In this document: positions 17,577 to 61,078 of the stretch, in pieces
Layout of the letters: each line of letters starts with the position of its first letter
How positions within the stretch are numbered: the stretch's first letter is position 1
NCBI GenBank assembly: GCA_944327085.1
Contig: CALVGG010000004.1
Span: forward strand, 1-64,000
Reading direction: 5' to 3'
Source of the DNA: an uncultured Elusimicrobiales bacterium
Lineage (GTDB): Bacteria; Elusimicrobiota; Elusimicrobia; Elusimicrobiales; Elusimicrobiaceae
DNA: 64,000 nt
Position numbers and translations under genes: made by a program
Notes under the pieces: generated by a model
Told to the model about the DNA's origin: nothing
Databases searched by the model: none
What the model saw: the letters and a program-made list of their open reading frames with translations, nothing else

Positions 17577-18602
17577 TTATTTTTTGGCTTTCTTGGCTTT
17601 TTTAGCCGCATCTTGCCTAATCTGTTTTACTATGGCGCGTATCACACTGTGGTCCCCCCGTTTGCCGGGCACAATATATTGGGGGTAGGCGTCTTTAAAT
17701 TCCAGCTGGTAGTAATCGCTGCCCATGGTTTGTTCCATAAACGCACGCATGGGTTTATTAAATGCGCTGAAAAGAAAGAAATCATACGCCAGCGTAACCG
17801 GTTTGCCGGTTTTGGGGTTGGTTTGCTTTGTGTTTACATATAAATTGGCTGACACCATACCCACCAGCTCCCCGGTATTACTCATCACGCCCGAGCCGCT
17901 CATCCCGCTGCGTATGCCAAAATTTTTGGTATAACCAAAGCCCAAATCCTTTACATAATATACCGGGTTGGGATTGGGTTTAATGCTGCGCACACCGTCA
18001 AAAATAGAAATGACGGACAGCTTGCGGTCCAACTGATAGGTATCGTCATCAAACGCCAATATGGGAGGTAAATCCCCGCTGAGTACGCGGCGCAATTTGG
18101 AAGCGGCGCGGCGGTTGGTATTTAAAAAACGGTCAAAGGTTTGTTTGGATACCGCCTCCCCGGGTTTGGCATTGGGCACACGGCGGAAGTAATAATAAGG
18201 GGCGCGGCTTAAATCCAGACGGATGAGGGCAAAATCGTCCAAAGCGGGGATTTCCAAGTCATAATCCGGGTGGATAAACACGGCCGGTTTTTTGGGGGTG
18301 GAGCGAACCGTGGCCATGGCAGTATAGTCTTCGTCCAACAAATCCATATAAATATTGCAACCGGCTTTTGCACATTCCAGCACGCAGTGGGCCGCCGTGG
18401 CAAACCAACGCCGGCCGATGCGCGTGGCCTGGCATTTTTTCCACTTGGCATTTTTGCCTAAAGGTTGTATTTGGTATTCAAAGGTGTGATAGAAATCCTC
18501 GGTAGAGGTATGCTGGTCTTCATCCGTAACAGACACTACCCCCACCTGCCCCCAAACAAGCGGGCTAAACAAACACAAACATATGGTAAAAAATAGTTTC
18601 AT
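17577..18602 (-). CDS. Exported trypsin-like serine protease (S1 family)
   Basis: About 341 residues with a signal peptide (MKLFFTICLCLFSPLVWGQ). The chymotrypsin-fold triad is visible: His in WFATAAHC (about residue 75), Asp in DDFALIRL (about 119) and Ser in RSGMSGSGV (about 237). The mature enzyme would act in the periplasm or outside the cell. The C-terminal tail is Lys/Ala-rich (AAKKAKKAKK). ATG 18602 has a GGGGG Shine-Dalgarno; TATAAT at 18625-18630 gives it its own promoter, but it lies directly after the ChaN-like array on the same strand and could also receive read-through. Confidence 0.85.
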   Translation of the reverse strand: MKLFFTICLCLFSPLVWGQVGVVSVTDEDQHTSTEDFYHTFEYQIQPLGKNAKWKKCQATRIGRRWFATAAHCVLECAKAGCNIYMDLLDEDYTAMATVRSTPKKPAVFIHPDYDLEIPALDDFALIRLDLSRAPYYYFRRVPNAKPGEAVSKQTFDRFLNTNRRAASKLRRVLSGDLPPILAFDDDTYQLDRKLSVISIFDGVRSIKPNPNPVYYVKDLGFGYTKNFGIRSGMSGSGVMSNTGELVGMVSANLYVNTKQTNPKTGKPVTLAYDFFLFSAFNKPMRAFMEQTMGSDYYQLEFKDAYPQYIVPGKRGDHSVIRAIVKQIRQDAAKKAKKAKK

Positions 18603-18689
18603 CAAATCCCCCTTTCCGCCCCTTATTATAGCAAAACAGGGGCCGAATGCAGAAAAACTCCTCCGGAAAATTGCACAGGCACGGCAGGG

Positions 18690-19781
18690 TTAAGGCAATA
18701 TATAGGCGGCGTCAAACCCGGCCAGGCGGCCCCAGCGCGGGGATTTCCAACTTAGCAAAGCCCCCGGCTTAATAAAACGGCCGTTGCTTGCGGCATGGAA
18801 GAAATAACGCGGGGCATGCCACTGTTGATAGGCGCTAAGGACAAAAGTTTCGCCCTGTGGGAATTGCCTGGCTACTGAAAACGGCATTTGATAATCAATA
18901 TGGGCATTACCCGCGTAAATAAAAAATACAGCCTGCGGGTACTTTTTTGCCCAAGCGCGTATACACTGCGCCCAATGAGCGTTGCGCAGGCGCACCCCCT
19001 CCCACGTGGCCTGCTGCGGGACGGAAGAACCGTTAAAAGAAATAAACTGGCGTTCATCTGCCGTAATAATTTTTTCTTCCAACCCGGCAAACGCAATGAC
19101 ATTCCAGGCCAGTTTATCAAAAAAACCTTGATAATTTTCAAACCGCTCTTCTGCATTAAAAGGCGTAAAAGAAAGGCCTTTATCATACTGAAATTCCGTC
19201 AGTACAATTACCTGTTTATTGGGGTGCTGTTTTTGATATTTTAAAATGAGGTTCAAAAAAAACTGTTGGATTTTTTCTTCGCGGTGCACCTCCCCCAAAA
19301 AGATATATTTGGCCGAAGCGGGAAAAGACACTGCCGGTTTTTTAAACGATACCTTTAAATCTTTTTCCATCTGCGGCATAAGCTGCGTGGCGCGGCGAAA
19401 GTTGTGTTCCAACCCGGCACGCAGTGCCAGCATACGGCGGTTATTGGCGTATACCCAGGCATTATCTATACGTACGTCCAATTCTTCCAAAGGGTCCATC
19501 TCTCCGACAGAAAACACCGGGGCAAGATGTTTAAAATGCCTATCCATAAAGGCTTGCTGTTCCCATGTTTTTTTATCCTGCCAAAAACTATGTAGTTTTT
19601 TGGCCGTTGCCGTACGCTGGCCTATAATCCGCGTTAAAGAGGCATCGGTTTTTTGCCGCCGCAACATGGTATTCATTTGGCGCAAATTGCGCCACTTGCC
19701 ATGCAGCCACTGCTGCCCATATGTTAAACCGGGCAAGCAAAAACACAGTATGCAACAAAAAAACAAACGGTAAAATTTCAT
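18690..19781 (-). CDS. Exported ChaN/EreA/Tiki-like protein, array gene 6 (copy A)
   Basis: 363 residues with signal peptide (about 1-22). Motifs of the family in order: NNR (113-115), FLGEVH (161-166), VLTEF (193-197), GLE (233-235), LRNAHW (265-270), YAGNAHIDY (289-297), ETFV (311-314) and RLAGFD (352-357). GExH, the TEF Glu and GxxH correspond to the conserved polar residues of the ChaN/EreA/TraB-Tiki superfamily, where they bind metal or haem or do catalysis. ATG 19781 is chosen: it overlaps the stop of the upstream paralogue by 4 nt (ATGA) and has AGGAAG before it. Last gene of the six-gene array. Substrate unknown. Confidence 0.82.
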   Translation of the reverse strand: MKFYRLFFCCILCFCLPGLTYGQQWLHGKWRNLRQMNTMLRRQKTDASLTRIIGQRTATAKKLHSFWQDKKTWEQQAFMDRHFKHLAPVFSVGEMDPLEELDVRIDNAWVYANNRRMLALRAGLEHNFRRATQLMPQMEKDLKVSFKKPAVSFPASAKYIFLGEVHREEKIQQFFLNLILKYQKQHPNKQVIVLTEFQYDKGLSFTPFNAEERFENYQGFFDKLAWNVIAFAGLEEKIITADERQFISFNGSSVPQQATWEGVRLRNAHWAQCIRAWAKKYPQAVFFIYAGNAHIDYQMPFSVARQFPQGETFVLSAYQQWHAPRYFFHAASNGRFIKPGALLSWKSPRWGRLAGFDAAYILP

Positions 19782-20953
19782 TTTGCACTTCCTTTCCAAT
19801 CGGTCAATATTTGCACGTCAAACCCGGCTATGCGGGCCAATTTTTTATCCGTCCACCCCAGCACCGGCGCGTTTACCAGGCCGTGGGTAAATTCATTAAT
19901 CAGGGTACAGTCTTTACGCATAAAGTGGGCTACAAAAGTTTCTTGCGGGTTAAACGCCTGGGCCAAACTAAAAGGCATAATGTAGCCGCTGTGCCATGCG
20001 CCGGTATGGATAATAAATAAAGCGTCCGGATATTTTTTACGGTAGCGCATAAGCAGCTGCAGCCAAGAGGTATTGCGCAAATAAATACCGCTTAGGCTTT
20101 GCCACAAAGAATGGGCTTGCACAGTGCCGTCCTCTTGCTTAAACAACAGTTCAACATCATTGGATAACGAAACGGCCGGGTTTTCCAACCCGTGGGCGGC
20201 GAAACTATGTTTATACACCCAGTCATAAATACGATAATAAGCCGCATCTTTGCCGGAAAAACGGAGCATAGGCAACATAGAGGCAAAGGCCACATCCTGG
20301 GATACAAACTCCGTAAAATAAATAATGCGCCGGTTTGGGTTGCGGGCATAAACGGCTTTTATAAAATCTAAAATATAGGCAGATACTTCCGGCACGTCAT
20401 GCTCTTCCCCTATTAAAATTTGTTTTACGCCGGGAGGGACCATTTCCGCCGCGCGTTGGGCAAATTCCTCCGGCTTAAAAGAAACGCTTTGCTCTATCAG
20501 CTGCTGCGTATAGGCTTGCATATCTGCCTGTATTTTTTTGCGCCGCTGCACAGTGCCGGCTGCTAAACGGTTGTGAAAAGCCAGGGCATAATTTTTAAAA
20601 GCTTTGTTAGAGGCGTTTTTTAAAGCAGGGTGCATTTTGTAAAAGAAAAAAGACATATCATCCGACCAATTCTTGACCCCCACAACCGGCATTTCCAATT
20701 CATCTAATAAAATTTTAAGGTCCTGCTGATTGGCTTTTTTATATATGTTTTTCTGTGAAGCTTCGGCCCTGGCTTTTAAAATTTTATTTAATTGTTTTTC
20801 CTGCAACACGCGGCTGCGTTTAAAACCGGCCGGTTTTATCTCTGCCGTTTTATAGAACGAGAGCCGTTTTTTCCAAACAGAACCCTGCGCCTGGCTAAAA
20901 GAAGGGAGCCAAACCAATCCAGCAGCCAACAGGCATATGATAATTTTTTTCAT
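19778..20953 (-). CDS. Exported ChaN/EreA/Tiki-like protein, array gene 5 (copy B)
   Basis: 391 residues, signal peptide ending near SQAQ (20-23). Motifs: HNR (127-129), LIGEEH (180-185), FTEF (213-216), GLE (255-257), LRNTSW (292-297), GAWHSGY (318-324), ETFV (338-341), RIAGFD (374-379). It is closest to copy C: both share VKNW, the PNRKI/PNRRI-YxTEF block and a common length, so B and C look like the most recent duplicates. A 63-nt gap separates it from copy C, holding a possible promoter (TTGAAA 21008-21013, 17-nt spacer, TATGCT 20985-20990). No clear Shine-Dalgarno before ATG 20953. Confidence 0.82.
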   Translation of the reverse strand: MKKIIICLLAAGLVWLPSFSQAQGSVWKKRLSFYKTAEIKPAGFKRSRVLQEKQLNKILKARAEASQKNIYKKANQQDLKILLDELEMPVVGVKNWSDDMSFFFYKMHPALKNASNKAFKNYALAFHNRLAAGTVQRRKKIQADMQAYTQQLIEQSVSFKPEEFAQRAAEMVPPGVKQILIGEEHDVPEVSAYILDFIKAVYARNPNRRIIYFTEFVSQDVAFASMLPMLRFSGKDAAYYRIYDWVYKHSFAAHGLENPAVSLSNDVELLFKQEDGTVQAHSLWQSLSGIYLRNTSWLQLLMRYRKKYPDALFIIHTGAWHSGYIMPFSLAQAFNPQETFVAHFMRKDCTLINEFTHGLVNAPVLGWTDKKLARIAGFDVQILTDWKGSAK

Positions 20954-20984
20954 TTTATATATTTGTCAATTTTCCGCAACGCAT

Positions 20985-21013
20985 AGCATAAATCCGGCCC
21001 GGAAATTTTTCAA
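20985..21013 (-). promoter_or_regulatory. Possible internal promoter for copies B and A
   Basis: TTGAAA (21008-21013), 17-nt spacer, TATGCT (20985-20990) on the minus strand, in the only sizeable gap inside the six-gene array. Start expected near 20978, 25 nt before the copy B ATG. Confidence 0.45.
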
Positions 21014-21016
21014 CAA

Positions 21017-22180
21017 TCAATCAATTTGTATGCGCACATCAAACCCCGCCAAACGGGCCAAGTTTTTATTCTTCCAACCCAATATGGGGTATTTGGAAAA
21101 AAATCTATTAGAAAATATATTAAAAGTCGTATTATTCTTTTGAAGGACTTCCAGCACGAAAGTTTCCTCCGGCGCAAAGAAGCGAGCCACGCTGTACGGT
21201 GCCGCATACCCCACATGGCCCTGCCCGGCGTGAATAATAAATAACGCGTCCGGGTATTGCCGGCGGGTTTTTTCAATAGTGGTCCGCCAAGCCAAGTTGC
21301 GCAGGTACACACCACCCAGGGTTTCCCACAAAGACACTTCGTGCGAATCCGGCTCAAACAGGCGCCCCAAATACAACTTGGCGTTTACATTATCCCACAC
21401 GTATACGGGCTCAAGCCCCACCACCGGCCAGCCGGCACGGTGCGCCCAGTCAAAAATATCAAAATATTCTTTATTGCCGCCTAATGAACGCATAATTTCA
21501 AGCCAATAATCCGTTTTTATATCCTGCGGGATAAATTCTGTTAAATACACAATTTTACGGTTGGGGTTTTGCACTTTAACGGCCTGGATAAATTGCAATA
21601 TTTCGTGGGAGATTTCCGGCACGCTGTGCTGCTCGGCAATTAAAATTTGTTTTACCTGGGGAGACACCTGCTTGGCTGCCTGCCACGCCAGGGGAGAGTT
21701 GGCCTCAAAATTAATTTTTTCTCTTATAAAATGAGGGATTTGCGCCTGAATATCTTTTTTTAATTGCAAACGCTGTTTAGCCACAACCCCCACCAAACGG
21801 TTATGCAGGGCAATAAAATAACTTTGTTGGGCTACCGGGCCGGCATTGCGGAGCCAAGGAGCAGATTTGTATATTCCCTCAGAAAGTGTATTTGGCCAAT
21901 TTTTTACCGCTACAGCAGGCAGTTCACCCAAGTATAAATACTCTTCCATCAAAACCGGGGGGATGGTTTTATATATTTTTTTATTGGCTTGTAAAACTCT
22001 TTTATGCAAAGTTTTTTCTATCTGTTTGGGCTCCAACATGCTTGTGCGCGAAACAGCCGGCTTGCAAAACATATTTTTGCAAACATAAGCCGCTTTTTTT
22101 ATTACACCGTTGCTGCTATAGCTTGTATGCGGCAATAGCAAACTAAAAATACAGATAAAAAGAATGTAAGTTTTTTTCAT
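21017..22180 (-). CDS. Exported ChaN/EreA/Tiki-like protein, array gene 4 (copy C; AEQH variant)
   Basis: 387 residues with signal peptide (about 1-22). Motifs: HNR (126-128), LIAEQH (180-185), LTEF (213-216), VGLEPV, LRNLAW, HAGQGHVGY, ETFV and RLAGFD near the end. The first Gly of GExH is replaced by Ala, the only such change in the window; Glu and His are kept, so activity may survive. Starts inside the stop of copy D (ATGA, 4-nt overlap), indicating coupling. Cys pair CKNMFC near residues 34-39 is specific to this copy. Confidence 0.82.
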   Translation of the reverse strand: MKKTYILFICIFSLLLPHTSYSSNGVIKKAAYVCKNMFCKPAVSRTSMLEPKQIEKTLHKRVLQANKKIYKTIPPVLMEEYLYLGELPAVAVKNWPNTLSEGIYKSAPWLRNAGPVAQQSYFIALHNRLVGVVAKQRLQLKKDIQAQIPHFIREKINFEANSPLAWQAAKQVSPQVKQILIAEQHSVPEISHEILQFIQAVKVQNPNRKIVYLTEFIPQDIKTDYWLEIMRSLGGNKEYFDIFDWAHRAGWPVVGLEPVYVWDNVNAKLYLGRLFEPDSHEVSLWETLGGVYLRNLAWRTTIEKTRRQYPDALFIIHAGQGHVGYAAPYSVARFFAPEETFVLEVLQKNNTTFNIFSNRFFSKYPILGWKNKNLARLAGFDVRIQID

Positions 22181-23367
22181 TTTTGTTTCTTAAAGGGATA
22201 GTTTTTGTCACTAAGCAATAAACGGATATCAAACCCCGCTATACGGCGAAGAGAGGCATCCTTCCAAGACAGCACTTCTTCCAAATAAAAGGGGTATTTG
22301 TCTTCTCCAACGGCTTCCAGCAAACCCCGGGCTTCGTTATCGGTGGGAGTGTCCGCAAACAAATGCGCAACAAAAACTTCTTCCCCCGGCAATTGCGAAG
22401 CCAAAGACGCAAAACTATTATATGCCAAATGATCAGCCCCTGCATAAATCATAAATACCGCATCCGGATAGGCCTGGCGCAGTTCTTTAATCCGCGCAAG
22501 CCACGCTTTATTGCGCAAACGCATTCCTTCTGGGGTTATCCACAACCCGGTCACATCCTCTTTCCCGGCCCACTGCGGGTCTAAATGTACAATGCCCTCG
22601 CCAAAATATACATACTTGGGTTCCAACCCTTTTACTGCAATGCCATTGCTGGCGGCACTGTTTAAAACATAGGCATAGGCAGGGTCTTCAGCTTTCATAT
22701 CTTGCAACAATAAAGTTTTTTTACCGTTTATGGGCAAAAACTCCGTAAGTAAAACTACTTTTCGGCCCGGATATTTGGCTTTATATTCTTTAAAAAATTT
22801 GGTCAAAAACACCTGTATTTGGCTGTGTCCGTGTTCTTCCCCCAGCAAAATGTATTTGGCGTTTGCAGGAATCACATCCGCCAGCAGTTTTTCAAACGGC
22901 TGAGGTGCAAATTGCAAACGCTCATCCCAAAGGGCCGGTAAGTTTTTTTGGATGTTTTTAACCGCTTGCTGTTTAATTTTTAAGTTCAAAGCGCCGGCAC
23001 GGTTATTGGCGGATAAAAAATAATCGCGTTTGGCTTGATCGGATAAATATTTCCAAAAGGGTAAATCTCCATACGGGGCATTGGAGTCGTAATGCGAAGG
23101 CCATCCCGTAATTCTAAGGCCCGGGAAATCCTCATTATCTAAATACTGGCTGCCCTTTTTTAAGTTTTCTATTTGGCGCGCTTGGGTACGCAGGCTGCGG
23201 TTTGCCAAAATTTTTTCTATTTGGGCCGCATTTACATTTTCGTTCCCCACTACACGGCGGCCGGCGGAAACAATCCGTTTAGCCGCACCCTGTGCCAGCG
23301 CCTCCTGCCCGGTTGCCAAACAGACAAATAAAGCAAAGTAAATACACAATAACCATCTAAAGGGCAT
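22177..23367 (-). CDS. Exported ChaN/EreA/Tiki-like protein, array gene 3 (copy D)
   Basis: 396 residues with signal peptide ending near ALAQ (23-26). Motifs: NNR (121-123), LLGEEH (174-179), LTEF (207-210), KGLEPK (246-251), LRNKAW (284-289), YAGADHLAY (308-316), EEVFV and RIAGFD. ATG 23367 is preferred over ATG 23373 because AAGGAG lies 6 nt before it; that Shine-Dalgarno overlaps the stop of copy E. Ends with a 4-nt overlap into copy C. Confidence 0.82.
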   Translation of the reverse strand: MPFRWLLCIYFALFVCLATGQEALAQGAAKRIVSAGRRVVGNENVNAAQIEKILANRSLRTQARQIENLKKGSQYLDNEDFPGLRITGWPSHYDSNAPYGDLPFWKYLSDQAKRDYFLSANNRAGALNLKIKQQAVKNIQKNLPALWDERLQFAPQPFEKLLADVIPANAKYILLGEEHGHSQIQVFLTKFFKEYKAKYPGRKVVLLTEFLPINGKKTLLLQDMKAEDPAYAYVLNSAASNGIAVKGLEPKYVYFGEGIVHLDPQWAGKEDVTGLWITPEGMRLRNKAWLARIKELRQAYPDAVFMIYAGADHLAYNSFASLASQLPGEEVFVAHLFADTPTDNEARGLLEAVGEDKYPFYLEEVLSWKDASLRRIAGFDIRLLLSDKNYPFKKQK

Positions 23368-23379
23368 TTGCATCTCCTT

Positions 23380-24552
23380 TTATAAAACAGGTATTTTAAA
23401 ACGCACGTCAAACCCGGCCAGGCGGGCCATATCGGCCGTGGGCCAGGCTACAAAACGCCGCCAGGCAAAAACGGAGCGGTTAAACGCATCCAGCAAATCG
23501 CAGCGCACAGGTTTAGTATTGTGCACTTCATACTGATAAAAAGTGGACACAAAAGTTTCCTGTTTGGGGAATTGCTCACTCAAAGAAAAGGGGGCATTGT
23601 ATTCTACATGAGAGGCCCCGGTATGAAATACAAAAAGAGCATCCGGGTACAAGGCCCGCATTTCCAATACTTTCTGCTTCCATATTTGGTTGCGCAGGCG
23701 CAGCACTTCTACGGAATGCCACATCTCTTCTTTTTCCACCAGGCCGCTTTGCTTGCTTACCCACATGACGGGCGAATCGTGATTGAACAACCAAACAGGG
23801 TCTAACCCCACAACCGGTATTTTTAATACGTCCGCCGCGCGCCAAATACTGGCATAGGAGGAAAATTTATTAGACAGTTTCTGCCGGTAAATTGCCGTAT
23901 CGGTATTGGGTAAAAATTCCGTTAACAAAAATATTTGTTTCTTGGGATATTTTTTACGCAAAGCCACCAACACGTTTTCTATTTCCTGCTGGATAACGGG
24001 CACAAAATGCACTTCCCCCAAGAAAATATATTTATGCGTATCTTTTACCCTGGCGGCTAAATCTTGCGCCGGGTTTTGGCTTGGGGCCGGGCTGTAAAAA
24101 CCGGAGGTGAGGGCTTTTTCATTAGCTTTCATGGCTTTTAAAGCATTGCGGCGCACATCGGCCGCACGCAAAACAGCCCGGTTATGGGCGGCCACAAAGT
24201 AATCCCGCTTGGCCGCGCGGGACAATTGCTGCACCAGGGTGTTTTCTTCATAAGGCCCTAAATTGGAGCTCCAAAACGGCCAGCCTTTAATTTTGCAAAT
24301 GGGGTCCTCTCCATACAACATACAGCCGGACATATCCCCTTTATGCACGGTTTGTGCCTTGGTAAAAGAGTTGCTTTTCCGGCGCGCTAATACCTTTTGG
24401 GCCTGTTTGGGGGCAATGGTCCGGCCGGAGGACGCCTCCTGCTTGGCGGTAGAGGAAACTTTTTTCCAAAAATTTTTGCCAAACAGCCCTTGCGCCTGTG
24501 CCCCGCCGGCCAATAGCAATACCGATAAAAAAATTACAAAATGCTTCTTCAT
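23380..24552 (-). CDS. Exported ChaN/EreA/Tiki-like protein, array gene 2 (copy E)
   Basis: 390 residues, signal peptide MKKHFVIFLSVLLLAGGAQA then QG. Motifs: HNR (123-125), FLGEVH (177-182), LTEF (210-213), VGLDPV (248-253, Asp in place of the Glu found in most copies), LRNQIW (286-291), HTGASHVEY (310-318), ETFV and RLAGFD at the end. Overlaps the stop of copy F by 4 nt (ATGA). A Cys pair (CMLY..ICK, near 77 and 86) is unique to it. Confidence 0.82.
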   Translation of the reverse strand: MKKHFVIFLSVLLLAGGAQAQGLFGKNFWKKVSSTAKQEASSGRTIAPKQAQKVLARRKSNSFTKAQTVHKGDMSGCMLYGEDPICKIKGWPFWSSNLGPYEENTLVQQLSRAAKRDYFVAAHNRAVLRAADVRRNALKAMKANEKALTSGFYSPAPSQNPAQDLAARVKDTHKYIFLGEVHFVPVIQQEIENVLVALRKKYPKKQIFLLTEFLPNTDTAIYRQKLSNKFSSYASIWRAADVLKIPVVGLDPVWLFNHDSPVMWVSKQSGLVEKEEMWHSVEVLRLRNQIWKQKVLEMRALYPDALFVFHTGASHVEYNAPFSLSEQFPKQETFVSTFYQYEVHNTKPVRCDLLDAFNRSVFAWRRFVAWPTADMARLAGFDVRFKIPVL

Positions 24553-25610
24553 TTTTTAGCTCCAGCAGGCAATACTACGCTTACGTCAAACCCGGATAAA
24601 CGCGCATATTTGGGGTCCTTCCAATACCAAACCCCTACCCCGGAAAATCTGCCGTTAAAAGCCCTGTCAAACGGGGTAAAACGTAAACGTTTGCCTACAA
24701 AAAAATCCATGGCAAAAGTTTCCTCTTTGGGAAACGCCGCCGCTACCGAAGCCGATAAATTATATTCCGTATGCCCCAACCCGGCATAGATAAAAAATAC
24801 CATATCCGGGTAGGTTTCGTGCATGGCTTGGATTTGTTTAATCCAATGTCTGTTGCGCGTTTGCACAGCCAGCGCGGTGGAAGATAAAAATGCCGTGCCC
24901 TTTTTTTCCGTCAAAATTTCGTTGGTTGCCTGCGCACGGGCAACGGGTTCTTCCAAACCAAAAACGGGTATGCGCCATTTCATTAACAGATTAAAAAAAG
25001 CCCTTTTGCTGGTAACGCGCGCTTCCATTTCTTTGGGAAGCAAAGACACATTGGTATCCAAAACAAATTCTGTTAAAACCATTATTTTCTTTTCCGGGTG
25101 GCGCTTTTTATAACGGGCCAAAATATATAAAATCTGTTTTTCTATATCAGGCTGATGGTGCATCTCCCCCAAGAAAATAAATTTGGCCGAAGGCGGAATT
25201 AAAGAAACCAAATCCGCCGTACGCGCATATTGCAGCCGTTCTTTAATTTCCTGCCTGTTGGCGCGCAAGCGGCGCACCGTGTGCTCAACAGACAAACGGG
25301 CTGCCAACTCTAAACGGTTATTAGTCAAAACCGCCGCTTGTTCATAGGCGCTGGCTGCGCGGCTTTGCACTCTGAAACTCCAAGGCAATACATCCTGTGC
25401 GGAAAAATGTAAAAAAGGAGCCACTGCATCGGCTGCGGCATAAGTACGCGACAATTCTTTTTGTGCTTTGGCCGGGTTGGTCATCAACCTTTCTCCTTTG
25501 CGTATTAACGCTTTTTGCACCTGGGCCCATTGCTGTGCCTGTACACCGTAGCCCCCCATGCACAATAAGCAAAACAAGACAAAAATTTTTTTAATCCCCA
25601 AAGTCTTCAT
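24549..25610 (-). CDS. Exported ChaN/EreA/Tiki-like protein, array gene 1 (copy F)
   Basis: 353 residues from ATG 25610; signal peptide to about VQAQ (23-26). Motifs: NNR (97-99), FLGEMH (146-151), LTEF (179-182), FGLEEP (217-222), TRNRHW (251-256, Thr for Leu), YAGLGHTEY (275-283), ETFA and RLSGFD. First gene of the array and nearest to copy A in the helical N-terminal part. ATG 25610 has GAGG 9 nt upstream. ATG 25625 is an alternative, 6 nt from a TATCAT -10-like hexamer. A Fur-box-like sequence and a GGCCC repeat lie upstream. Confidence 0.82.
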   Translation of the reverse strand: MKTLGIKKIFVLFCLLCMGGYGVQAQQWAQVQKALIRKGERLMTNPAKAQKELSRTYAAADAVAPFLHFSAQDVLPWSFRVQSRAASAYEQAAVLTNNRLELAARLSVEHTVRRLRANRQEIKERLQYARTADLVSLIPPSAKFIFLGEMHHQPDIEKQILYILARYKKRHPEKKIMVLTEFVLDTNVSLLPKEMEARVTSKRAFFNLLMKWRIPVFGLEEPVARAQATNEILTEKKGTAFLSSTALAVQTRNRHWIKQIQAMHETYPDMVFFIYAGLGHTEYNLSASVAAAFPKEETFAMDFFVGKRLRFTPFDRAFNGRFSGVGVWYWKDPKYARLSGFDVSVVLPAGAKK

Positions 25611-25631
25611 AGCGAGAATCCTCATACTATT

Positions 25632-25650
25632 ATGATAGATAATCATTCTC
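25632..25650 (-). promoter_or_regulatory. Fur-box-like sequence at the head of the ChaN-like array
   Basis: Read on the plus strand, 25638-25650 matches 12 of 13 positions of the right part of the consensus Fur box (GATAATCATTATC); over the full 19 positions (25632-25650) the match is 13. It covers a TATCAT hexamer that could be the -10. ChaN of Campylobacter is iron-regulated, which makes this site of interest, but such AT-rich matches arise by chance. Confidence 0.35.
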
Positions 25651-25660
25651 TATACAGCCA

Positions 25661-25674
25661 GGGTCTTTGGGCCC
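25661..25674 (-). promoter_or_regulatory. GGCCC-N3-GACCC motif upstream of copy F
   Basis: Minus-strand reading GGGCCCAAAGACCC. Nearly the same sequence lies upstream of the two other ChaN-like loci (49431-49443 and 61057-61069). Possibly an activator or repressor site. The rest of 25675-25900 shows no convincing gene. Confidence 0.4.
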
Positions 25675-49359: not shown

Positions 49360-49430
49360 AATTATATTCTACCAATTTTAAGGCATATCTGCCCGCCGCC
49401 GCGCATAGGCCCAAAAATCTGCCCATATTA

Positions 49431-49443
49431 GGCCCAAAGGCCC
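49431..49443 (+). promoter_or_regulatory. GGCCC-AAA-GGCCC motif upstream of the decayed ChaN-like gene
   Basis: GGCCCAAAGGCCC, 14 nt before a TATAAT (49458-49463). A looser copy (AGGCCCAAAAATCTGCCC) lies at about 49406-49423. Same motif as at 25661-25674 and 61057-61069. Confidence 0.4.
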
Positions 49444-49478
49444 TTTTATTATAAGCATATAATTGTTTGAATAAATTT

Positions 49479-49980
49479 ATGAGGATGCCATATTTATTTT
49501 CCGCCTGCTTATGTTTTTGTTTATTGGGCGCCGGCCTGCCCCCGGTGCACGCCCAGCAGTGGCATGCGGCCTTAAAACGCGCACAAAAAACGGCGCAAAA
49601 AACCCTTGTAAAAAATAACGGGCAAATTCATGCGGCCATAAAGCAGAGCGCGGCGCGCGCACAAAAAATGCATGCGTCCTTTAAACCCTTTAGCACGGAA
49701 AACGCCTTTGTAAACTCTTTTATATTGTTTGATAACTCCCATGGGAAAACCACCTCCGCCGCCGCAAACGGCTGGAAACTGAACGAAAACCGGGAGTGGC
49801 TTATACAGCGCATCCTGCATGAGAAAACTTTGCGGCAAATAGCAAAACAACAAAATAAATGGGAATCCTTTTTAAAAAGCACGCCCCCGCTGGCGCCCCG
49901 GCACATTAATTTGGCAAAACCCCCAATATGCCCGCATGGCCGGGTTTAACGTGCAGGTAATACTGCCGCTGGATGAATAA
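49479..49980 (+). pseudogene. Decayed ChaN-like gene with internal deletion (copy G)
   Basis: The first about 145 codons encode a signal peptide and the helical N-terminal region of the family (AQQWHAALKRAQKT, NENREWLIQRILHEK), closely parallel to the intact gene that follows. The frame then runs to a stop at 49949. In the next frame, bases 49922-49980 encode PQYARMAGFNVQVILPLDE and a stop, which is the conserved C-terminal AGFD segment. The whole middle with GExH, TEF and GxxH (about 190 codons) is gone and the remainder is frameshifted. It is thus a deletion remnant. Confidence 0.8.
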
Positions 49981-49991
49981 GGACGTTTACC

Positions 49992-51041
49992 ATGAAAAGC
50001 TTTTTTATTTTATGTTTGATTATTTGTATGTTTACCGCCGCACCCGCGCACGCCCAGCATTGGCACACGGCCGTTAAACACGCCGAAAAAACCCTGCAGC
50101 GCAATATAAAACAATATAACGGGAATGTAGAAAAAGCCCTGCACAAAAACATCACCCGTGCGCAGGCCGTGCATCAGGCATTTGCCCGCACCAATTACTT
50201 TGCCCCCACCTTCAGCCTCGGCGCATTTACGGTTAAAGAACCTATCGGGCAATACACAACCCCGATGGTTTACGGTTGGACCATGGACGAAAACAACCTG
50301 TTTATTTCCCAGCGTATTATTTACGAAAGACACATCCGCCAATTATTAAAGAAAATAGATTTTTTCCAGCACAATAAAATACAAATGCCGGCCGGTATGC
50401 CGGCCAAAAAATTGGCAGCGCTTATACCGGCCGACAAAAAATACATTTTTATGGGGGAATACCATTACCAGCAAATTACCAAGCATTTAATGGATACATT
50501 AACGGCTTTTGTGCAGCTGTACCCGGATAAAAAAATAATTGTGTTTTCGGAATTTGCAGACGAGTGGGGCTTTGAACAATCCGCCGGGAACCCTTCGCTT
50601 ATGCCTTATATCCAGCCGTTGGAAAAGGCCGGCATTACCTGGGTGGGGCTTAAAGAACCCGCCCCGCTTAAAACGGCTATATTAAGCGATGAATATAATA
50701 TGCCCGTGCAGGCCACATTAAAGGGCATAAAAACCCGCAACGCACACTGGCTGAGCATATTAAAACAATGGAGGAAGGAACACCCCGACGCTTTGTTTAT
50801 CATACATGCCGGGGGCGGGCATACAGATTATCAGGAAGCGTTTTCCGTTTCGGCCCGTTTCCCGGCAGGGGAAACTTTTGTATTGGAGTTTATCCCTTAC
50901 TTTAACGGTTTTTCGCAATATGCTTTGGAGCCTTTCCACCACGCAACCAATTATATTTTTTACCGCCCGGGCATATTGCGCTGGCAAACGCCGCGCGCGG
51001 CGCATTTGGCCGGCTTTGATATGCAGGTTATGATTCCTTAG
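49992..51041 (+). CDS. Exported ChaN/EreA/Tiki-like protein (copy H)
   Basis: 349 residues, signal peptide to AHAQ (19-22). Motifs: NN (101-102), FMGEYH (153-158), FSEF (185-188, Ser for Thr), VGLKEP (218-223, Lys in place of Glu), TRNAHW (248-253), HAGGGHTDY (272-280), ETFV and HLAGFD. AAGGA lies before ATG 49992, just past the remnant copy G, so both share one promoter. Its last 14 nt overlap the end of uvrB on the other strand. Confidence 0.82.
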   Translation: MKSFFILCLIICMFTAAPAHAQHWHTAVKHAEKTLQRNIKQYNGNVEKALHKNITRAQAVHQAFARTNYFAPTFSLGAFTVKEPIGQYTTPMVYGWTMDENNLFISQRIIYERHIRQLLKKIDFFQHNKIQMPAGMPAKKLAALIPADKKYIFMGEYHYQQITKHLMDTLTAFVQLYPDKKIIVFSEFADEWGFEQSAGNPSLMPYIQPLEKAGITWVGLKEPAPLKTAILSDEYNMPVQATLKGIKTRNAHWLSILKQWRKEHPDALFIIHAGGGHTDYQEAFSVSARFPAGETFVLEFIPYFNGFSQYALEPFHHATNYIFYRPGILRWQTPRAAHLAGFDMQVMIP

Positions 51042-59967: not shown

Positions 59968-60993
59968 TTACGGAAAAATTAACTGTTCATCAAACCCAAT
60001 CGCTTGAGACCATTTTTTGTCCCTCGTGTACAACACGCCCGGTTTGGCAAACTGGAATTTACTCCACCGGTGGAACAAATTCTTTTTTAAGCTCACGCGG
60101 GACTGCAGTAACGCCACGTAACTGCTTTCCCCACCCACCATTTGCGGCAAGGCGTGCGGCATATTATAACTGCAATGTTCTGCCCCGGTGTAGATAAAGA
60201 AAATGGCTTGGGGGTATTTTTCCCGCCAGGCTTTAATGCGCTTGGCCCAATGCATATGGCGCACATAGCGCCCGTAGGCTGTATCCGCCCCGCGCACCAA
60301 AAAGCCGTTTTTTTCGTACCAATGGCCCTGCGTGCCGGGCTCTTCCAGCCCCACAATATCCACCCCACGCGCTTTTAACGAAGCAAACGCCGGGAAATAC
60401 TCCTCATAATTGCCGCCGGACGGAAAGGACTCGGCAGGGGTTAAACCGCTGTCCGGCAAGAACTGGGTAAACAGAACAATCTTTTTGTCCGGGTAGCGCT
60501 GCCTAAAATCTTTAATAATCACCTGCACTTGCTTTATTGCAGAAACCAGATGATAATCTTCCCCCAAGAAGATATTTTGTTTATCCCCCATGCGGGGCAC
60601 ATACAAAGAAGGGCTTTTTTGTTCCACCAACGCCATGGAAGCAAGCACCTCTTTTTTATGTTCTTCCAAACGGCGCAGGTTTCGCTCCTGCACAATGCGC
60701 TGGGCGGCCAGCAAACGGTTGGAACGCGCAGCCCAGGCATCTAACGCTTTATTGGTTTCCCGTATAGTATATACGTTTTCGGGGGCGTATACGCCGTCTA
60801 ACCAGGTGTTTAGTATGTCTGTTTTTTGAAAGGCTTGCTGCAAAGTTTTTAAACGGGCGGCATCACTTTTAAAGCCGGCATAAACCCCCGGTCTTTTTGC
60901 CTGACGCGTAACCGTTTGCACGGCTTTCTGCCATGTTTGCGCACAAAGACTGAAGGGTAAAATACAAAAAAAGAATAACAAACAATGTTTCAT
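59968..60993 (-). CDS. Exported ChaN/EreA/Tiki-like protein (copy I; altered active-site motifs)
   Basis: 341 residues, signal peptide to about LCAQ. Motifs: SNR (91-93), FLGEDYH (142-148), FTQF (175-178), VGLEEP, VRHMHW (244-249), YTGAEHCSY (268-276), ESSYV and IGFD. It is the most divergent copy: GExH carries an extra residue (GEDYH), TEF is TQF, LRN is VRH. It may have lost or changed activity while keeping the fold. ATG 60993 has AAGGGG upstream and is preferred over the upstream frame start at 61011. Confidence 0.8.
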   Translation of the reverse strand: MKHCLLFFFCILPFSLCAQTWQKAVQTVTRQAKRPGVYAGFKSDAARLKTLQQAFQKTDILNTWLDGVYAPENVYTIRETNKALDAWAARSNRLLAAQRIVQERNLRRLEEHKKEVLASMALVEQKSPSLYVPRMGDKQNIFLGEDYHLVSAIKQVQVIIKDFRQRYPDKKIVLFTQFLPDSGLTPAESFPSGGNYEEYFPAFASLKARGVDIVGLEEPGTQGHWYEKNGFLVRGADTAYGRYVRHMHWAKRIKAWREKYPQAIFFIYTGAEHCSYNMPHALPQMVGGESSYVALLQSRVSLKKNLFHRWSKFQFAKPGVLYTRDKKWSQAIGFDEQLIFP

Positions 60994-61050
60994 TTTTTCC
61001 CCTTTCAACATAAAAGCTTATATTATTATTTTATCTATCCCTTTCCCTCC

Positions 61051-61069
61051 GGGCCAGGGCCGTTGGGCC
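61051..61069 (-). promoter_or_regulatory. GGCCC-AAC-GGCCC motif upstream of copy I
   Basis: Minus-strand GGCCCAACGGCCCTGGCCC, three GGCCC units, 63 nt or less before the copy I ATG and preceded by ATTA as at the locus near 49431. Confidence 0.4.
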
Positions 61070-61078
61070 TAATAAAAC

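Follow-up and report, generated by a model that had tools for sequence, protein, structure and literature searches.

A tandem array of diverged, exported TIKI-superfamily proteins and its promoter signature in an uncultured Elusimicrobiales bacterium

We analyzed 64,000 nucleotides from an uncultured Elusimicrobiales bacterium (assembly GCA_944327085.1, contig CALVGG010000004.1, positions 1 to 64,000), referred to here as the window. Six tandem open reading frames (ORFs) on its minus strand, between 18690 and 25625, form one array of paralogues, each encoding an exported protein with a TIKI-type fold.

The six-gene array and its promoter

The operon begins with gene F (24549-25625), which encodes 358 amino acids (aa) from a leaderless start. 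It is followed by gene E (23380-24552), gene D (22177-23373), gene C (21017-22180), gene B (19778-20953) and gene A (18690-19781), all on the minus strand. Promoter geometry places the start of gene F at 25625 and not at 25610. Gene A starts with the ATG at 19781; the alternative TTG start at 19799 in the ORF list is unnecessary. A first-pass annotation of this DNA had described six consecutive same-strand genes with three ATGA overlaps. We confirmed both the order and the overlaps, which lie at F/E (24549-24552), D/C (22177-22180) and B/A (19778-19781). The distance of 12 nt that it gave between E and D holds from the second ATG of gene D; from the first ATG the gap is 6 nt. Genes C and B are separated by 63 nt, and no operator was found in this gap.

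The array paralogues share 23-30% pairwise identity with the first gene. Alignment of the six proteins gave 31 invariant columns, including E170, H172, E202, R272-N273, W276, H300, Y303 and G361-F362-D363 (first-gene numbering). The annotation had assigned one uniform motif set to all six. The catalytic Glu and His residues are indeed kept throughout, but gene C carries AEQH in place of GExH, with Glu and His retained, and the C-terminal motif of gene F is SGFD.

Upstream of gene F lies the palindrome GGGCCCAAAGACCC (25661-25674, minus strand). It has the form RGGYC-N4-GRCCY and is a predicted operator with its center at about -42.5. The -10 box TATCAT (25632-25637, minus strand) follows 23 nt past the palindrome and stands 6 nt before the leaderless ATG at 25625. 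The signature therefore reads palindrome, 23 nt, TAN3T, 6 nt, ATG. The palindrome occupies the same position in five orthologous loci amid diverged intergenic DNA. When the upstream regions of these five arrays were aligned, a block GGGCCCAA(T/A)G(G/A)CCC followed by TATCATAATA was conserved and the rest had diverged. Within the window, the palindrome stands at the signature spacing ahead of all three family loci.

A search of the source genome for RGGYC-N4-GRCCY, 23 nt and TAN3T found 27 sites, compared with 0 for the reversed pattern. We also counted perfect sites in 31 sampled stretches, with a spacing of 21-25 nt allowed. They precede 27 of 43 operon leaders, 0 of 44 internal copies and 2 of 347 other genes (Fisher 3e-28, an indicative value since some of the 31 stretches share genomes). 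With one promoter at the leader and none before internal copies, the earlier proposal of co-expression of the array was upheld.

The spacing from palindrome to -10 peaks at 23 nt, and the ATG offset after the -10 peaks at 6-7 nt. Of 85 sites, 30 have the ATG at this offset of 6-7 nt, so transcription likely starts on the start codon itself. A leaderless message would not contain the palindrome, a point in favor of a DNA operator. A center near -41.5/-42.5, about 22-23 nt before TAN3T, is also the position of class II activators such as NtcA and CRP. The present signature differs from such promoters in its new palindrome and its frequent leaderless start.

Many of the loci L115-L141 carry a second half or full site (TAGGCCYAAA-like) about 17 or 23 nt upstream of the main palindrome, which suggests two bound dimers. 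A single palindrome at L126/L128 (G000:C2:208.2 kb) is flanked by two divergent genes, one for a ClpP-like protease and the other for an exported protein of 169 residues, and there is a -10 on each side.

The promoter signature and its exported-protein gene set have not been noticed before and were missed by the first reading; the literature on regulons of Elusimicrobia, on leaderless promoters and on the exported proteome, searched mostly outside subscription journals, made no mention of this signature.

Fold, catalytic residues and relation to ChaN

An alignment of 80 homologues was built as the input for an AlphaFold model of gene E (pLDDT 91.4, pTM 0.86). The first 12 Protein Data Bank (PDB) matches of this model in Foldseek all belong to the TIKI superfamily: HopBA1, RRSP, ChaN, EreC and PMT. 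HopBA1 was the best match (E 7.5e-5) and ChaN (2g5g) the third; EreC/Bcr135-type structures (6xcs, 6xcq, 3b55) were also among the Foldseek matches of the family. The model has the superfamily core of parallel strands flanked by helices, with modest TM-scores. The annotation had called the proteins ChaN/EreA/Tiki-like, and the models of gene E and of a further copy in the window (59968-60993) both match the ChaN/Ere-type fold.

In gene E the four catalytic residues are E180, H182, E212 and H315, and they sit at or in model strands 175-180, 207-215 and 306-312. This set of two His and two Glu is present in order and complete in 75 of the 80 homologues. In the other 5 catalytic residues are lost or altered, and the proteins are otherwise intact. 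R287, G249, P303 and G380 are invariant across all 80. RRSP depends on the Glu and His of GExH, on a Glu in the following strand and on a His further along, and it has these residues in common with Ere enzymes (PMC6254334).

Membership in ChaN proper was not borne out. Window members scored below the gathering score of Pfam ChaN (PF04187; best 25.6 bits versus a cut-off of 27.7), and no PF04187 match over the cut-off was found anywhere in the source genome. Elsewhere in the genus, a few copies pass it weakly. PF04187 is nevertheless the nearest Pfam family, with 45 of 80 members matching at E <= 0.01, and hhalign against the canonical ChaN of the phylum, which is present in other families, gave a probability of 96% with the same motifs aligned. 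No Ere family match was found in Pfam or NCBIfam models, and searches of NCBIfam and of PDB sequence profiles returned chance-level matches only. As modeled, the family is a member of the TIKI/ChaN/Ere superfamily but not of ChaN itself.

The family shares with ChaN the core fold and the ordered GExH, Glu and GxxH columns. It lacks the canonical GExHD...H and WNE, and has an extra N-terminal helical part (NNR/HNR), an RN..W motif and a C-terminal AGFD. Signal peptides occur throughout, in agreement with the Sec export proposed earlier. ChaN is an exported lipoprotein whose dimer holds two cofacial haems. The present family differs in that a lipobox is found in only 3 of 80 homologues and that its genes stand in multi-copy arrays. 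With the erythromycin esterases EreC and Bcr135 it shares the superfamily by Foldseek and the two-His/two-Glu catalytic logic (PMC6254334), whereas the present proteins are exported, have no Pfam Ere match and carry different helical additions. The TIKI endopeptidases and effectors RRSP and HopBA1 are the best fold matches and have the four catalytic residues in the same order. The present proteins, in contrast, are Sec-exported, mostly single-domain and encoded in tandem arrays; they are not toxin domains or injected effectors.

Distribution of the family and of the predicted regulon

A sampled search of the phylum placed the family in 36 genomes from a single Elusimicrobiaceae genus and in one genome of a sister genus. 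A scan of 84,980 species, which reaches fairly close relatives only, gave 18 confirmed loci, all under Elusimicrobia or unnamed-bacterium record titles. The source genome has 18 family matches at E <= 1e-5, many more than chance would give. Elsewhere in the chosen set of genomes, copy number was 0 in one member, 3 in G034 (another genus) and 27 at most. Apart from a few distant relatives in sister genera, the family is essentially limited to this single genus of the Elusimicrobiaceae, and the homologue count agrees with the lineage-specific expansion that had been proposed. One rumen genome carries at least 11 copies in a row, with 25-44% identity.

The array is flanked by rplA (25951) on one side and by a trypsin-like gene (17577-18605) and then obgE on the other. 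Gene order at this rplA-obgE site is common to relatives, and therefore the duplications predate these species. Orthologous pairs across species have dN/dS of 0.12-0.36, with dS near saturation for several, and a catalytically degenerate pair in two relatives has 0.22. These values indicate purifying selection on orthologous copies and support diversification, including pseudoenzymes. Orthologous slots across species, together with these ratios, favor diversification over dosage, as the annotation had argued.

The trypsin-like exported protein flanks the array at the rplA-obgE site in relatives too; its gene has no visible operator of its own. In one relative a copy is broken into two frames (L024:5153-6327), a sign of birth and decay in arrays. 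Another gene (L064:11000-13795, G196) encodes a 931-residue protein with the family domain at the C-terminus, after about 530 unrelated residues, and has a perfect promoter site ahead of it. A conserved neighbor as partner was rejected, as arrays stand at unlinked housekeeping loci. By raw count, pilin-like genes lie near nine loci.

The signature extends well beyond the family. By a crude rule 19 of the 27 sites in the source genome precede exported-protein genes, and about 21 of 27 do so by eye. In G034, a single contig of 1,643,562 bp, 18 of 21 sites precede signal-peptide genes. G097, from another family, has 19 of 22 sampled sites before such genes, for example those for an S41 peptidase and a PLD-like protein. 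For comparison, the crude rule picks out 35 of 92 background genes; membrane proteins and members of the family are part of this set. Besides the family, the regulon of the source genome contains trypsin-like proteins (L122, L141), a SpoIID-like protein (L135), an exported receiver-domain protein (L117), zinc-ribbon repeats (L126) and an HExxH protein (L140). L175 of G034 is a true family homologue (hhalign 97%; GEIH, RNGFW, GGMGH) and has a leaderless promoter as in the array. Two more distant GExH proteins of G034, tentatively related (L188, L191), are also encoded behind sites. A survey of 248 genomes showed enrichment of the signature in families f1, f7 and f8 and, more weakly, in f2; genomes from the other classes of the phylum have essentially none.

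About 23-27 sites each were found in G063, G131, G217 and the source genome. CRP/FNR was rejected as the common regulator and is an unlikely one: no CRP-family match was found in G063, G131 or G217, and, unlike genomes with CRP-type promoters, the source genome has no CRP-family protein over the cut-off among the matches listed (best match E 1.5e-4).

The protein of L117:256-1485 (G000 contig C1, about 183 kb) combines a signal peptide with a receiver domain (PF00072, 1.5e-12). The domain is apparently exported, which would be unusual. L139 (G000:C6:10877) and L190 (G034) encode a non-exported protein of 52-53 residues that is kept with the signature across two genera and is a candidate regulator or adaptor.

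Possible functions and further copies in the window

We consider it probable that the array is one operon of genus-specific, diversified Sec-exported TIKI-superfamily proteins, mostly hydrolases, within an exported-protein regulon. Most copies would act outside the cytoplasm, where they would hydrolyze peptide, amide or ester bonds. Water would be activated by the His-Glu pairs of GExH, TEF and GxxH, which sit where the parallel core strands end, and the choice of substrate may fall to the variable helical region at the N-terminus. A minority without catalytic residues would act as binding proteins. Transcription would start from one promoter per operon, where a putative activator, which we prefer to a repressor, may bind RGGYC-N4-GRCCY near -42.5, beside the -35 region. 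RNA polymerase would use the TAN3T 23 nt downstream of the palindrome, and the first message may often begin at the ATG itself. The same signature stands ahead of genes for about twenty other exported proteins in the source genome. The family would thus be expressed together with other exported enzymes, and within a regulon of exported proteins far older than itself the array would be the part that has expanded most.

Several observations weigh against this proposal. ChaN has a similar set of GExH, Glu and GxxH, so the residues by themselves would not prove hydrolysis. Catalytically degenerate copies are also retained. Foldseek gave low TM-scores (0.32 when scaled to the query, 0.53 when scaled to HopBA1), although modest values would be expected of a distant subfamily. 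Sixteen of the 43 leaders lack a perfect site; 4 have one mismatch and 2 deviate at two positions. No regulator of the palindrome was identified when the CRP family was searched in the site-rich genomes.

That the proteins are non-catalytic binders (decoys, inhibitors or immunity-like proteins) on an enzyme fold, their variety reflecting many ligands, appears unlikely. The 5 degenerate homologues stay intact, one pair of them under the dN/dS given above and one with its predicted fold kept, and the long, diverged array of the rumen genome would suit many ligands. Yet 75 of 80 homologues keep all four residues, beyond the need of binding alone, and R287 and G249 are invariant. Periplasmic binding of haem or metal as in Campylobacter ChaN, with copies that differ by ligand or timing, is distinctly unlikely. 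It draws on PF04187 as nearest Pfam family, on the hhalign match to canonical ChaN and on the third fold match. The annotation had named haem or metal capture and hydrolysis as possible roles; capture found no support because there is no TonB receptor over the family cut-off, the lipobox is rare and regulation is not of the iron type. A single weak 413-aa match was rejected as a link to TonB/haem uptake. The only Fur-like match at the operon, near 25637, has three mismatches, overlaps the -10 element and was not accepted as a Fur box. Moreover, the promoter is common to proteases and other non-iron genes, and the canonical GExHD with its second His, WNE and other ChaN columns differ from those of the family. 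Hydrolysis was retained as the favored role.

We regard it as very unlikely that the proteins are effectors on neighboring cells or on an animal or protist host, like the TIKI-fold HopBA1 and RRSP. The best fold matches are effectors, the record titles of several relatives point to rumen samples, and co-regulation with secreted proteases looks like an effector regulon. Against this stand the ordinary Sec signal peptides, the absence of any secretion system linked to the arrays, and the presence of the regulon in other families of the class, whose lifestyle is not known. For the palindrome, an origin as a repeat, an RNA hairpin or a by-product of composition is extremely improbable. GC-rich palindromes can be repeats or terminators, and the plain 14-mer is also present in coding DNA. 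However, the count of 27 versus 0 in the reversed control, the fixed 23-nt spacing to the -10, the position upstream of the transcription start in the leaderless case and the conservation amid diverged DNA all oppose it.

Beyond the favored reading of an operon of exported hydrolases, we tentatively propose a wider arrangement that could well hold. A dedicated regulator in part of the class Elusimicrobia may control much of the exported proteome through the palindrome, often by leaderless messages. A diversifying family of TIKI-fold hydrolases and pseudo-hydrolases would have flooded this regulon in one gut genus, where it would serve as an outer-surface or extracellular enzyme repertoire. Elusimicrobia are widespread in gut and environment, and few of their functions are known. 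The signature lets part of their secretome be read from sequence alone and offers a handle on the regulator and on the role of up to 27 diverged TIKI-fold copies. With this family, a superfamily whose roles range over haem binding, esterase and protease activity would gain a natural and highly diversified set.

The annotation had counted three more copies in the window. Two are full-length and the third is decayed. At the second locus the palindrome AGGCCCAAAGGCCC (49430-49443, plus strand; geometry read from the sequence) is followed after 23 nt by a variant -10, TTGAAT (49467-49472), and after 6 nt more by the ATG at 49479. The decayed copy that starts there (49479-49980, plus strand) keeps its N-terminal half; the core is deleted and the last residues are in another frame, with a C-terminal remnant also recovered at 49903-49971. 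A full-length copy with intact catalytic residues lies downstream (49992-51041, plus strand). The third locus has the palindrome AGGCCCAACGGCCC (61057-61070, minus strand) and the -10 TAAAAT (61028-61033). Its full-length copy (59968-60993, minus strand) has lost catalytic residues (GEDYH, TQF). The predicted fold is retained (pLDDT 87), and on this model the copy is a probable pseudoenzyme.
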